The notes under the pieces: generated by a model
Seen by the model: the letters and a program-made list of their open reading frames with translations, nothing else
Databases searched by the model: none
Told to the model about the DNA's origin: nothing
Part shown: positions 46,427 to 52,663 of the stretch, piece by piece
Layout: each line of letters opens with the position of its first letter
Numbering within the stretch: the first letter of the stretch is position 1
Assembly: GCA_030696315.1 (NCBI GenBank)
Contig: JAUYSM010000062.1
Coordinates: forward strand, 1 to 64,000
Reading direction: 5' to 3'
Origin: Pseudohongiella sp.
GTDB taxonomy: Bacteria > Pseudomonadota > Gammaproteobacteria > Pseudomonadales > Pseudohongiellaceae
DNA: 64,000 nt
Made by a program: the position numbers and the translations under genes

Positions 46427-47593
46427 TCAATCTTGCGTTGGAGCAGGTACTACCGGTGCCGCAGGAGCTGCTGTCGCTGGAACACTGGCTGCAGCAACAG
46501 ATTTCTTCGCGGCGCGTTTGACCGGCGCTTTAGGAGCGGCAGGCTTGGCTGCTGCGGGTGCTTTTTTAGCAACCACAGGTTTAGCTGCTACGGCCTTTTT
46601 GGCCGCGACTGGTTTTTTGGCAGCAACTGGTTTTTTAGCAACTACCGGCTTTTGAGCAGCGGGCGTAGATTTAACAGCAGCTTTTTTTGCAACTGGAGTT
46701 GCTTTGGCTGTTGCTTTAGCTGGTGCTGCTTTTTTGGCAACTGCTTTTACCGGCTTTGCAGGTTTGGCGGAAGCTTTTTTAGCAACAGGCGCAGCAGCTT
46801 TGGCTACTTTGACGACTGCTGGTTTGGAAACTGCTTTAGGTGCCGCTGCGGGCTTGGCAGGTTTGATCTTGGCTTTAGCTTTAGCGATTTTTGCTTTGAG
46901 TGCTGCTTTCTTAGCGGCGGCTTTATCACGCGTTGCTTTCAGTTTGGCTGCAGCTTTAGCTTTGGCAGCTGCTTTTTTTGCAGCTGTTTTTTCGCGAATA
47001 GCCAAGGCTTTTGCGATTGATTTAGCTTTAGCAGCAGCTTTTTTGGCTGAAGCTTTGGCTTTCAAAGCTGCTTTTTTTGCTGCTGCTTTTTCTTTGGTTT
47101 TTTGCTTCTTGATTCTGGCAGCTTCTTTTGCTGCGTCAGCTTTTTTACGTTTTTTCATGAACTGGGCAGCAAACGCTTTTACGGCCTTGTCGAGATCAGC
47201 TTCTGCTTTTGCCGCAATTTGAGCTTTGCGAGCTTCAGCTGCTTGCTTGCGGGCTTCTACAGCCGCCTTGGCTTTTGCAGAATCAGTAATCGATTTAACT
47301 TGGGATTTTGCAGACTTCAGTTTGTCATTGATGGCAGTCAAATTTCCGGCTGCTTTCTTAGCGGCAGTTTCAGCGCTCAGCAATGCTTTTTTACCAGCAG
47401 CTGTAGTGCTTTTTGCTGCTTTAGTAGCTGCGGCTTTGGCTTTTGCTTCTGCTGCTTCCAATTTCTTTTTGCCAGCAGCAAGTTCTTTTTCAACTTTCGC
47501 CAGAGAGGCTTCTGCTTTTGCCAAGGCAGCGTCTTTCAGTTTTTTTACTGCTGACACGGCAGATGTTTTCTTTTTCGCTTTAACTTTGGCCAT
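46427..47593 (-). CDS. Histone H1/AlgP-like Ala/Lys-rich protein
   Basis: This 388-residue protein is built mostly of Ala, Lys, Val and Pro. Residues 1-150 are predicted coiled coil (alternating KKLEAAEAKAKAAATKAAK heptads). Residues 150-245 are AKAKAAAKK-type basic repeats. From 245 on there are degenerate KPAA and AKKPVA units, ending in a short Pro/Ala tail. This resembles P. aeruginosa AlgP and bacterial H1-like proteins, which bind DNA non-specifically. A nucleoid role is inferred from composition. The skewed sequence makes the repeat number likely to vary among strains. GGAGAG precedes the ATG. Confidence 0.85.
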   Translation of the reverse strand: MAKVKAKKKTSAVSAVKKLKDAALAKAEASLAKVEKELAAGKKKLEAAEAKAKAAATKAAKSTTAAGKKALLSAETAAKKAAGNLTAINDKLKSAKSQVKSITDSAKAKAAVEARKQAAEARKAQIAAKAEADLDKAVKAFAAQFMKKRKKADAAKEAARIKKQKTKEKAAAKKAALKAKASAKKAAAKAKSIAKALAIREKTAAKKAAAKAKAAAKLKATRDKAAAKKAALKAKIAKAKAKIKPAKPAAAPKAVSKPAVVKVAKAAAPVAKKASAKPAKPVKAVAKKAAPAKATAKATPVAKKAAVKSTPAAQKPVVAKKPVAAKKPVAAKKAVAAKPVVAKKAPAAAKPAAPKAPVKRAAKKSVAAASVPATAAPAAPVVPAPTQD

Positions 47594-48402: not shown

Positions 48403-49236
48403 TTAGTTTTCCAGATGTTTTGCTTCTTGCCACCACTGCTCAAGTACGTCGCTATTGCAGTCGGTCAGCGTTGTATCTTTTTTGGCAGCAGCCTGTTCAA
48501 TAAATTTAAATCGTGATTCAAATCGTTTGTTTGCATCGCGTAAACTTGCATCGGCATCAAGACCCAGATGTCGGGCCAGATTGACGCAGGTAAACAGAAT
48601 GTCGCCCAGTTCATGCTGCTGATCTAGGGTACTGCCTGCTGCGACAGCTTGTTTCAATTCCATTACTTCCTCGTCAAGTTTGGCAATGACACCAGATAAG
48701 TCTGCCCAGTCAAAACCTACTGACGCCGCACGTTTTTGCAACTTCGCCGCCCTGTCTAAGGCTGGCATGGCCGATGCGACATCGTCCAGAACACTGACTT
48801 GTCGTCCCTGTCCTTCACGAATACGCTCCGCATTTTTTATCTTTTCCCAGTTACGCTCTACTTCCTGGGCAGTCAATAAAGTCGGTTGCCCAAAACTGTC
48901 CAGTGTGCCATCCGGAAAAATATGAGGGTGGCGGACTAACAACTTTTTAGTTATCGCGTCGGCGACATCCTTTAAATCAAATAAACCCTGTTCTTGGGCA
49001 ATGCGGGCGTAAAATACCACCTGGAACAGTAAATCCCCAAGTTCATCGCAGATTTTTTCTGGATTTCCTTGTTCTATCGCATCGATTACTTCGTAAACCT
49101 CCTCCAGCGTGTGTCGGGTTAACGAAGTAAGGGTCTGTTTTCTATCCCATGCGCAACCATGTTCTGGATCTCTCAGATTCTCCATCAATGTTACAAGAGC
49201 AGAGATGGCATCCGCCTGTGTCTGGCTGCTTTGCAT
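48403..49236 (-). CDS. mazG: Nucleoside triphosphate pyrophosphohydrolase MazG
   Basis: MazG hydrolyses (d)NTPs to monophosphates, and in E. coli it lowers (p)ppGpp. The 277-residue product has two MazG domains. The N-terminal one has CAWDRKQTLTSLTRHTLEE and the GDLLFQVVFYARI helix; the C-terminal one has LDEEVMELKQA and HELGDILFTCVNLARHLG. The Glu/Asp magnesium ligands are present in both. It begins one base after the relA stop, so the two are coupled, which fits the link with ppGpp. Confidence 0.94.
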   Translation of the reverse strand: MQSSQTQADAISALVTLMENLRDPEHGCAWDRKQTLTSLTRHTLEEVYEVIDAIEQGNPEKICDELGDLLFQVVFYARIAQEQGLFDLKDVADAITKKLLVRHPHIFPDGTLDSFGQPTLLTAQEVERNWEKIKNAERIREGQGRQVSVLDDVASAMPALDRAAKLQKRAASVGFDWADLSGVIAKLDEEVMELKQAVAAGSTLDQQHELGDILFTCVNLARHLGLDADASLRDANKRFESRFKFIEQAAAKKDTTLTDCNSDVLEQWWQEAKHLEN

Positions 49237-49237
49237 A

Positions 49238-51268
49238 TTATTGATCCTCCAGGCGAGTTGCCTCGATCACACTATCCAGATCATTCAGGTGGTCCAGCGC
49301 TCGCGCCAGCCGTGTGAATGAATCAGCTTCTATTTCCAGTTGCATATAGGCGGTTGCAGCCTGTTTGTTGCTGCGAGTATTGATCGCAAGTACATAAATC
49401 CCTTCTGCTGCAAGAATGGCAGAAACGTCACGCAACAGTCCTGCGCGGTCATGAGCAAGAATACCCAGATGAATGCTGCGCGTCTGTTCTCCACTATTTT
49501 CCGAGTGCATCCCTGCAAAAAGATCAGCAGGTACAAGATCTGCACTCAGTAATCTGACGACATCGATGACTTCATCGACGGCAATCGCACCCGTCCCAAC
49601 CGAGACAAACAAGCCGTCAACATTTTTACAACCCAGTTTTTTAGCAATGTCTTCATACGGAATATGGCGGATAGCAAGGCGTTTAAATTCAGTTTCAAGC
49701 CATTCTTTTCCGTATTCGAGATTCTGATCCTTGTCCTGTAATTTAAACCATTGCACCAGTTTGGCGCGCGATCTGGGTGTGTTTGCATACCCCAGATGTG
49801 GTTTGAGCCAATCTCTGACGGGGGAGTTCAACGGGCTGGACAACACCTCTACCCTGTCACCAGTTTTGAGACGATAGTTCAGCGCGACCACTTTATCGTT
49901 CACGCGCGCACCGGAGCAATGGTGCCCGACTTCCGTATGGACGTAGTAGGCAAAATCCAGCGGTGTTGCACCAGCCATCAGATCAACCACGTGCCCCTCA
50001 GGTGTAAACACATATATTCTGTCGTCAGCGCGGGCATCACTGCGCAATTGTTCTGCAAGTCCACCCACCATACCCATTTCGTCGTGCCATGCCAGCACTT
50101 GACGCAACCATTCAATTTTTTCTTCAAAACCATCTTTATAATTTGGATCTACGATGCCTTCCTTGTAACGCCAATGTGCGCAGACCCCCAGTTCAGCGTC
50201 GTCGTCCATTGCATATGTCCGGATCTGAATCTCAAAGACTTTATTATGGGGGCCAATGACAGCGGTATGCAGTGACTGATAGCCATTCTCTTTTGGATTG
50301 GCAATGTAGTCATCAAATTCGTTGGGAATCACGCGCCAGATGTTATGGACTATGCCCAGCGCTGCATAGCAGTCACGTACATCAGGAACCAGTACCCTGA
50401 CGGCTCTTATGTCAAAGATCTGACTGAAATCGAGCTGTTTGCGCTGCATTTTTCGCCAGATACTGTAAATGCTCTTTGCTCGACCATTAATTTCAGCGTC
50501 GATGCCTGCCCGATTAAATTGCCTTCTGAGCTCTTCTGTCACTTCAGTGATGAAGCGCTCCCGGTCAACCCGACGTTCGTCAATCAAACTGGCAATGCGT
50601 TTGTAGTTTTCAGGCTGCAGATATCGGAATGAAAGGTCTTCGAGCTCCCATTTCAGTTGCCCGATACCTAATCGATGCGCCAGCGGCGCATAAATATCAA
50701 ATACTTCCCGGGCAACCCGGCGGCGCTTTTCTTCGTTGGCATTTTTTACAGAGCGTATGGCGCATGTTCGTTCAGCAAGTTTGATCAGCGCAACGCGGAC
50801 ATCATCCACCATGGCAAGCAGCATCTTGCGGACGTTCTCAATCTGATCCTGACTCTGGCCCAGAACACGGGTTTTGCTGGTGTCGGTCTCGTTGATAGCG
50901 GCCATGCGTAACACGCCTTCAAGCAGGCGTGCAATGTTTTCTCCAAACTCGAGTTTGACCTGATCAAGGGAGAGTCTTGATTCACGCACCGGGCGATATA
51001 AAACGGCTACGACAATGGCTTCGCTGTCCAGATGCAGTTGAGCAAGGATCTCGGCCATTTCGAGTCCTGTCCGGTAGCTGCTGATACCAGGTGACCAGGC
51101 ATTGTGGGCTGCGACTGTCTGTTGCTCGACCTGCCAGCTCAGGTCGCAGGCTTTGCGCAATTCGTCGTGCTTCGATAGTCCTACATAGGTTTCAAGACGG
51201 TTCAGCCATTGTTCGAAGTTGACGCTGCCATCGGGATTAAACGAGTATTCTTCGCGAACCTGAACCAT
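49238..51268 (-). CDS. relA: RelA-type (p)ppGpp synthetase lacking the zinc-finger domain
   Basis: RelA makes (p)ppGpp on ribosomes stalled with uncharged tRNA. The 676-residue product has a degenerate HD domain (VLYRPVRES replaces the catalytic HD, so no hydrolase), the synthetase domain with YQSLHTAVIGP and DDDAELGVCAHWRYKEG (about 240-380), the TGS domain (about 415-478), a helical domain (about 480-570) and a C-terminal ACT/RRM domain (598-676). The conserved-cysteine/zinc-finger domain normally lying between the last two is missing; only about 25 linker residues remain and no CC motif is seen. E. coli RelA has 744 residues. mazG follows by one base. Confidence 0.93.
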   Translation of the reverse strand: MVQVREEYSFNPDGSVNFEQWLNRLETYVGLSKHDELRKACDLSWQVEQQTVAAHNAWSPGISSYRTGLEMAEILAQLHLDSEAIVVAVLYRPVRESRLSLDQVKLEFGENIARLLEGVLRMAAINETDTSKTRVLGQSQDQIENVRKMLLAMVDDVRVALIKLAERTCAIRSVKNANEEKRRRVAREVFDIYAPLAHRLGIGQLKWELEDLSFRYLQPENYKRIASLIDERRVDRERFITEVTEELRRQFNRAGIDAEINGRAKSIYSIWRKMQRKQLDFSQIFDIRAVRVLVPDVRDCYAALGIVHNIWRVIPNEFDDYIANPKENGYQSLHTAVIGPHNKVFEIQIRTYAMDDDAELGVCAHWRYKEGIVDPNYKDGFEEKIEWLRQVLAWHDEMGMVGGLAEQLRSDARADDRIYVFTPEGHVVDLMAGATPLDFAYYVHTEVGHHCSGARVNDKVVALNYRLKTGDRVEVLSSPLNSPVRDWLKPHLGYANTPRSRAKLVQWFKLQDKDQNLEYGKEWLETEFKRLAIRHIPYEDIAKKLGCKNVDGLFVSVGTGAIAVDEVIDVVRLLSADLVPADLFAGMHSENSGEQTRSIHLGILAHDRAGLLRDVSAILAAEGIYVLAINTRSNKQAATAYMQLEIEADSFTRLARALDHLNDLDSVIEATRLEDQ

Positions 51269-51280
51269 AAAAATTCCTGA

Positions 51281-52663
51281 TTATTTGACCCGTTCGAAGC
51301 GTGCCATGGATTCAACGTGTCCAGTGTGTGGGAACATGTCCATAACACCCGCATGAGTCAATCGGTATCCTTGTTTTGACAGTTCAGCGGCATCTCTTGC
51401 CAGCGTGGACGGATTACATGAGACGTACACGATCACCTCAGGTAGCAATTCACGGATTTTTGAGACCAGTTCTATGGCGCCGGAGCGAGGTGGGTCTAGC
51501 AGCAATTTGGTGTAGCTGGCAGTTGCCCACCTGGAGCTGTCAAAGTCGGTGAACAAATCTGCAGCAAAAAACCGGGTGTTCGACAATTGATTGCGCGCGG
51601 CATTCGCTGCGGCACGTTCAACCATTTCTTCGCTGCCTTCAACGCCAGTCACCGAAGCGCAGCGTCTGGCCATAGGCAAACTGAAGTTACCCAGCCCGCA
51701 AAACAGATCGAGTACTTTGTCGTCTTGCTGCAAGTCGAGCAATTGTATTGCTTGCGTAATCATCCGGCGGTTGATATCGGCGTTGACCTGAGTAAAGTCG
51801 CCTGGGAAAAAAGATATACAGATATCACCGGTCTCGTCAGGCAAAAAATACTGAAGTTGATCATCGGCAGATTCTGGCCAGAATCGCGAGACAGTATTCG
51901 GTCCACCTGATTGTAAAAACCATTCGATATTGTGTTCATCAGCAAAATTGCGCAGTTTTTGCTTGTCTGCATCAGATAATGGGGCCAGATGCCTCAGTGT
52001 CATGGTGACGCGCAGTACCGTGTCAAGCAACTCGGTTGGCACACTGGAGCGCTCACCAACGGCAACTTCAATTTGTGGGACATCGCGGCAGCCTTCCAGC
52101 GTCAGCATCAACGCGCGCAAGGATTTGATGAGATTTCCAACAGGTGGCACCAAGGTGGTGCACCGTGTCATATCGGTAATAAATGTGCTGGCCTTTTCAC
52201 GAAATCCCACCAGTACATCAGATTTTTTATGAACATACCTGACCGCAAGCCGTGCTTTTCTTCGATAGGACTGTAATACAGATGTCATGGCTGGAATAAC
52301 ATTAAAGTCGACAATGCCAGCGGTATGTTTGAGATGATCAAACAGCACCTGCTGTTTGAGTGCGATCTGGCCTTCCAGTTTAAGATGTTGCAGCAGACAG
52401 CCACCGCATATGGATGCAGCCTCGCAAGGTGGCTGCACACGATCTTCAGATGCATGGATGACCTCCGCCAATTTCAATTCATCAAATTGACTGCGGCGCG
52501 ATGTGAATGTGGCCGTGACAGTTTCACCGGTCAGGGCTCCGTCAACAAATGCAATTTTGCCGTCAATTCTGGCGACCCCTCGCCCTTCGTGACTCATGCG
52601 TTCTATGGTCAATGTTTCCGGTTGCGTAGGCAGGCTCTGACGGCGGCGCCGATTGTTGCTCAT
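51281..52663 (-). CDS. rlmD: 23S rRNA (uracil1939-C5)-methyltransferase RlmD
   Basis: RlmD methylates U1939 of 23S rRNA. The 460-residue product has an N-terminal TRAM domain (about 15-70), an iron-sulfur cluster site with cysteines in PPCEAASICGGC and a fourth in DMTRCTTL, the SAM-binding KVLDLFCGLGNFSLPMA, and the catalytic cysteine in YVSCNPSTLARD. It lies directly upstream of relA with a 12-bp gap, the order I recall for Pseudomonas. Confidence 0.95.
   Translation of the reverse strand: MSNNRRRRQSLPTQPETLTIERMSHEGRGVARIDGKIAFVDGALTGETVTATFTSRRSQFDELKLAEVIHASEDRVQPPCEAASICGGCLLQHLKLEGQIALKQQVLFDHLKHTAGIVDFNVIPAMTSVLQSYRRKARLAVRYVHKKSDVLVGFREKASTFITDMTRCTTLVPPVGNLIKSLRALMLTLEGCRDVPQIEVAVGERSSVPTELLDTVLRVTMTLRHLAPLSDADKQKLRNFADEHNIEWFLQSGGPNTVSRFWPESADDQLQYFLPDETGDICISFFPGDFTQVNADINRRMITQAIQLLDLQQDDKVLDLFCGLGNFSLPMARRCASVTGVEGSEEMVERAAANAARNQLSNTRFFAADLFTDFDSSRWATASYTKLLLDPPRSGAIELVSKIRELLPEVIVYVSCNPSTLARDAAELSKQGYRLTHAGVMDMFPHTGHVESMARFERVK

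Follow-up and report, generated by a model that had tools for sequence, protein, structure and literature searches.

A RelA without its conserved-cysteine domain, maintained throughout Pseudohongiella and in one neighbouring genus

The relA gene of Pseudohongiella sp. encodes a protein from which one domain is missing while the others are retained. We analyzed the first 64,000 nucleotides of contig JAUYSM010000062.1 (assembly GCA_030696315.1), hereafter the window. The open reading frame (ORF) studied here is a RelA orthologue: it is closest to RelA, and it sits at the relA locus, rlmD-relA-mazG. It is not a canonical six-domain long RelA/SpoT homologue (RSH), but a variant that lacks the conserved-cysteine domain known as ZFD, CC or RIS (three names for one domain; ZFD below). 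This is a clade-wide loss of single origin, affecting one domain of a RelA that is otherwise maintained.

In an alignment with E. coli RelA (PDB 5iqr), residues 65-571 of the window protein correspond to E. coli 57-560, and residues 598-674 to E. coli 666-742. At the junction between the helical (AH) and ACT domains, 26 residues stand opposite 105 of the E. coli protein, and the gap swallows C612, C613, R629, H634 and C638. A preliminary description, made from the sequence alone, had proposed an in-frame loss of the ribosome-contacting domain between residues 573 and 597 of a RelA otherwise intact, with a total length of 676 residues against 744 in E. coli. The loss proved real and common to the whole clade, and the lengths are correct for the ORF and for RelA of E. 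coli K-12. Pfam, the alignment and a structural model agree that the synthetase, TGS, helical and ACT domains are present, and the proposed boundaries are right to within a few residues: in the AlphaFold2 model of the window protein the final AH helix extends to 575, most of residues 578-594 have a predicted local distance difference test score (pLDDT) below 50, and ACT starts at 597. The domains themselves are modelled confidently (mean pLDDT 81.7, predicted template modelling score 0.70). In the model of a full-length relative (L044), a floppy segment at 577-593 is followed by a ZFD of moderate confidence and then by ACT. Between fixed alignment points, ZFD-less RelA proteins have 52-54 residues, versus 111-133 in the others. 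Thus, about 66 residues were removed near the domain borders, leaving a linker of similar length.

The Pfam AH_RIS model matched the window protein below its cut-off and over the AH half only (protein residues 499-571, profile positions 8-82 of 185). The missing part of this match is in itself no proof of absence, because L041 and L044, full-length relatives that both have CC...H...C, also give a match that breaks off early. The absence of the ZFD rests on the alignment gap and on a genome-wide search with a ZFD profile. The profile, built from 10 rows, was run on 11 Pseudohongiella genomes, on G020 (from the neighbouring genus) and on two controls with full-length RelA (G018 and G024). It matched SpoT once in each of the 12 clade genomes, with a best E-value of 1e-14 or lower, and no protein other than SpoT under E 0.25 in these genomes; in the controls it matched both RelA and SpoT. 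A transfer of the ZFD to another gene is ruled out by this search in the 12 clade genomes. Neither Pfam nor the ZFD profile gave a match in the stretch of the window protein where the preliminary description had allowed that the domain might yet be recognised.

The identity of the protein as RelA is supported by several features. At the position of the hydrolase active motif the alignment reads AVLYRPV, without the HD dipeptide that we take to be the mark of active hydrolases, and the synthetase carries EFDD, presumably the signature of RelA synthetases. The equivalent of the TGS histidine, E. coli H432, is found in all 20 aligned rows. The NCBIfam model for GTP diphosphokinase gave the protein 664 bits, short of its cut-off of 728 bits, and the best stretch covered model positions 1-560. 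In a fold search 5iqr RelA ranked first, with low TM-scores (0.40) that confirm the family only. E. coli RelA, a long RSH of the hS class, shares with the window protein the pseudo-hydrolase, the EFDD synthetase, TGS with H432, AH, ACT and the location between rlmD and mazG; it differs in having the ZFD and 744 residues instead of 676, and its locus differs in having mazEF also between relA and mazG (in K-12).

We searched 37 related genomes for RelA. It was present in 14 of the 15 Pseudohongiella genomes, the window's own among them; the one without a hit, G005, is 72% complete. The Pseudohongiella sample includes P. nitratireducens SCS-49, Pseudohongiella sp. O18 and metagenome-assembled genomes (MAGs). 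RelA was also found in G020, a genome from a neighbouring genus in the same family (completeness 90%, contamination 7%), on a contig that also holds rlmD, mazG and adk. All 15 RelA proteins of this clade (14 from Pseudohongiella and that of G020) align end to end with the window protein. The preliminary description had argued that the gap is not a sequencing error and had named relatives with the full domain as a finding that would speak against the loss. None was found among the 14 relA-bearing Pseudohongiella genomes, and the same state in 15 of 15 clade proteins agrees with its argument and rules out an assembly error or a strain-specific deletion. From 108 loci we compared 96 different RSH sequences, two of which were cut short and dropped: the CC.P motif was missing in 15, exactly the RelA proteins of the clade, and present in 79 (77 RelA and 2 SpoT). 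The full-length RelA proteins of the family have the same flanks, but keep CC...H...C; the nine of them that were aligned are 67-69% identical overall to the window RelA. One Pseudohongiella genome has a third RelA_SpoT-domain match (G007:C5:314967-315302; 53 bits, 366-residue frame), a possible small alarmone synthetase.

Sampling of the order and the class revealed no second ZFD-less RelA. In the order sample (390 genomes, 389 with a match), genus g1 was the only one among the matches listed whose alignment reached the end of the query; 106 of the 149 genomes in the class sample had a match. Frames longer than 705 residues were assumed complete unread in both samples, except that of G290 (order), whose alignment ran oddly far. 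This frame was read together with the short frames among the matches listed (G092 in the order; G502, G448, G538, G492, G544, G517, G418, G457, G451, G548, G447 and G468 in the class), and CC.P was present in all 14, that is, the 13 short frames and G290. A further search in the class (369 genomes, cut-off 1e-24) gave a match in 36 genomes, and in none of the 35 besides the window did it extend past residue 137 of the 217-residue query. Three of the short frames (L152, L153 and L156, from G502, G448 and G544) encode gammaproteobacterial RelA proteins that end soon after the ZFD, seemingly without ACT, which is the reverse case.

In a tree of rlmD, mazG and adk (39 rows, 953 columns; three of the six outgroup rows of an earlier quick tree, with long branches, were omitted), the 12 ZFD-less rows formed one clade (bootstrap 98, Shimodaira-Hasegawa-like approximate likelihood ratio test 95), and 13 rows with full-length RelA formed another (100/100). 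The join of the two clades, possibly as sisters, is weak (63/20). Our results show a single loss of the ZFD, in the ancestor shared by Pseudohongiella and one neighbouring genus. Two relA loci that group inside the family (L035 and L044) come from MAG records titled Rhodoferax and Klebsiella pneumoniae; these titles look wrong.

The ZFD-less relA is shown to be under purifying selection in each retained domain. The ratio of nonsynonymous to synonymous substitution rates (dN/dS), estimated from four Pseudohongiella pairs and rough because dS was near or above 1 in several and incomputable for one domain of one pair, was 0.003-0.017 in the synthetase, 0-0.019 in TGS, 0.017-0.040 in AH, 0.033-0.20 in ACT and 0.12-0.22 in the linker. 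There were no internal stops in the 15 RelA genes of the clade.

On the ribosome side, we saw no matching loss (a shortened A-site finger) in six 23S copies from five Pseudohongiella genomes. The finger tip (E. coli 875-900) is identical across these copies, differs by one base from E. coli at the same length, and is the same as in four of the six other members of the order compared; no 23S match was obtained from the genome to which the window belongs. A 23S copy of G008 (L124; G008:C1:2316517-2319571) has 3055 bases versus 2894 in the other copy of that genome, and probably contains an insert of about 160 bases. Ribosomal protein L16 could be read by the pattern in seven of eight loci (all but L170), and each of the seven has AARR at 49-52; the residues compared are E. 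coli R50/R51 (PMC4974054; this and the other papers given by PMC number are cited from excerpts of their text). On the RelA side, the equivalent of ACT residue D675 is present in 20 of 20 aligned rows. E. coli R629, in the ZFD, lies close to the A-site finger (PMC7058999). In all 13 full-length RelA proteins of the family (L016, L039, L040, L043-L050, L077 and L082) an Asn occupies this place and the zinc ligands are kept; in 66 other sequences, two of them SpoT, the residue is Arg in 59, Lys in four, Ser in two and Leu in one. This pattern of residues suggests that the contact with the finger may already have been loosened before the ZFD was lost.

On balance, we consider it probable that this is a working, vertically inherited RelA that lost the ZFD once and still senses tRNA on the ribosome, more weakly docked than its full-length counterparts. 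(p)ppGpp would still be made when TGS reads the CCA end of an uncharged tRNA on the ribosome, and nothing but the tRNA and ACT, the latter through L16 and the A-site finger, would hold the protein there. Pre-docking on idle ribosomes is expected to be weaker and the activation threshold higher; SpoT, with its ZFD retained, could cover the remainder. In the E. coli ribosome complex, ACT contacts both L16 and the finger, and it has the last AH helix, Linker Helix 2, packed directly against it (PMC4974054). Given this packing, about 21 residues could bridge AH and ACT without the ZFD, and removal of the RIS need not shift ACT. E. coli RelA with C612G, D637R or C638F is reported to fully complement a relA deletion at low expression (PMC6719525), and residual function of RelA persists with the finger deleted (PMC5829649). 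In B. subtilis Rel, ZFD changes do not completely abolish activation, and a TGS-histidine mutant fails on minimal medium (PMC7058999).

Several observations weigh against a working sensor of this kind. In B. subtilis Rel, ribosome recruitment is impaired by ZFD changes, which lower activation 5-7 fold when combined with deletion of the RRM (PMC7058999). For RelA, contact of the ZFD with the A-site finger has been described as the key to both binding and activation, and with a shortened finger activation by starved ribosomes dropped 30- and 4-fold (PMC5829649). Inhibition by the C-terminal half was reported to require Cys-638 (PMC7669825). Of the E. coli ACT contacts, R670 and Q705-Q706 are not conserved, nor is R739 in the window protein; these positions also vary in full-length RelA. 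Some related genera have no relA at all: in 11 of 11 such family genomes examined (L132-L142, from five genera), rlmD lies directly beside mazG. Finally, the rates of TGS, AH and ACT relative to the synthetase are 1.3-1.5 times those of the full-length clade, and that of the pseudo-hydrolase is half (both on a fixed tree, with no significance test); the rates only hint at a loosening and show no adaptive change. On the altered sensing or autoinhibition that the preliminary description expected, the literature on ZFD mutants thus points both ways, and weaker docking, possibly with weaker self-inhibition, of the window RelA is plausible by analogy with them.

More tentatively, the family may represent a natural series, from a complete RelA whose finger contact is weakened, through a RelA lacking the ZFD, to the absence of RelA. 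The middle state would then be a fully working tRNA sensor that docks by ACT and tRNA alone, which we regard as possible.

It seems unlikely that the ZFD-less protein is instead an intermediate of decay, in a family where amino-acid sensing by RelA has become dispensable, so that loss of the ZFD was an early step and several related genera have completed the process. The genomes with rlmD beside mazG would fit such a course. The tree requires a minimum of two changes to account for the relA-less genomes, and thus relA disappeared on more than one occasion, barring a regain at the same site. A single long RSH, SpoT, was found in the relA-less genomes, G019 having a second, weak match (E 1e-4); SpoT has CC.P in all nine cases read (five family genomes with RelA and four without). 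The Asn at the R629 place in the full-length relatives and the faster C-terminal domains also fit decay. However, purifying selection is strong on all retained domains, none of the 15 copies is broken, and RelA has been retained across a genus with up to 27% RelA divergence.

We find it quite improbable that the protein has become a synthetase independent of the ribosome, working at a basal rate or answering another partner through ACT or TGS. In Caulobacter Rel the RRM is bound by EIIANtr (PMC13376610), which shows that ACT is able to accept other partners, but TGS, including its tRNA-reading histidine, is the most constrained domain after the synthetase, and both the ARR motif of L16 and the finger are unchanged. 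An assembly or sequencing artefact can be given virtually no weight: nothing was found in its favour, and the architecture is shared by all 15 assemblies, which include the single-contig genome G008 and named isolates, as are the neighbour genes wherever the flanks could be read.

Most long RSHs keep six domains, the rare exceptions being RelA without ACT, SpoT without the helical and CC domains, RshC and some RshA (Atkinson 2011, PMC3153485). The closest parallels described there differ in what is lost. In SpoT of Haemophilus ducreyi and Actinobacillus pleuropneumoniae an internal deletion takes the CC domain and spares ACT, as in the window RelA, but these proteins are SpoT, and the helical domain is gone too. 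RelA of Francisella and Methylotenera has naturally lost one C-terminal domain, which is ACT instead of the ZFD. Laboratory truncations of Rel or RelA without the RRM, or without the ZFD and RRM, lack ACT as well, unlike the window protein, and no construct lacking the ZFD alone is noted in the excerpts of this truncation work (PMC7058999, PMC6719525). In the open-access literature, part of it available as excerpts, we found no report of a RelA lacking only the CC domain; we also found none in that literature on Pseudohongiella and the stringent response, or on OM182 and ppGpp. The clade provides natural proteins with which to ask what the ZFD is required for, be it sensing, self-inhibition or pre-docking on idle ribosomes, and its close relatives with the full domain, or without RelA, are ready controls. 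A ZFD-less RelA is thus a test of a structural idea about how ribosomes are sensed.

Table 1. Coordinates in the window of relA, its domains and its flanking genes.
Feature	Position	Strand	Evidence
relA, without ZFD, 676 aa	49238..51268	-	ORF, Pfam, NCBIfam, alignment to 5iqr
Pseudo-hydrolase domain, residues 53-202	50663..51112	-	Pfam HD_4; HD dipeptide absent at aligned place
Synthetase core, residues 262-371, EFDD	50156..50485	-	Pfam RelA_SpoT; EFDD read in alignment
TGS, residues 418-476, with E. coli H432 equivalent	49841..50017	-	Pfam TGS; alignment
Helical (AH) domain including last helix, residues 490-575	49544..49801	-	Alignment, weak Pfam AH half, model
Flexible linker in place of ZFD, residues 576-596	49481..49543	-	Model pLDDT mostly <50; alignment gap
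ACT/RRM, residues 597-674	49247..49480	-	Pfam ACT_4 599-672; model
mazG, directly downstream of relA	48403..49236	-	ORF; order as in E. coli apart from mazEF
rlmD, directly upstream of relA	51281..52663	-	ORF; order as in E. coli

Near adk, the window also encodes a 388-residue protein rich in Ala and Lys and resembling histone H1 (46427-47593, minus strand). Similar Lys-rich frames follow adk in several loci of the family, for example L132, L134, L135 and L139.
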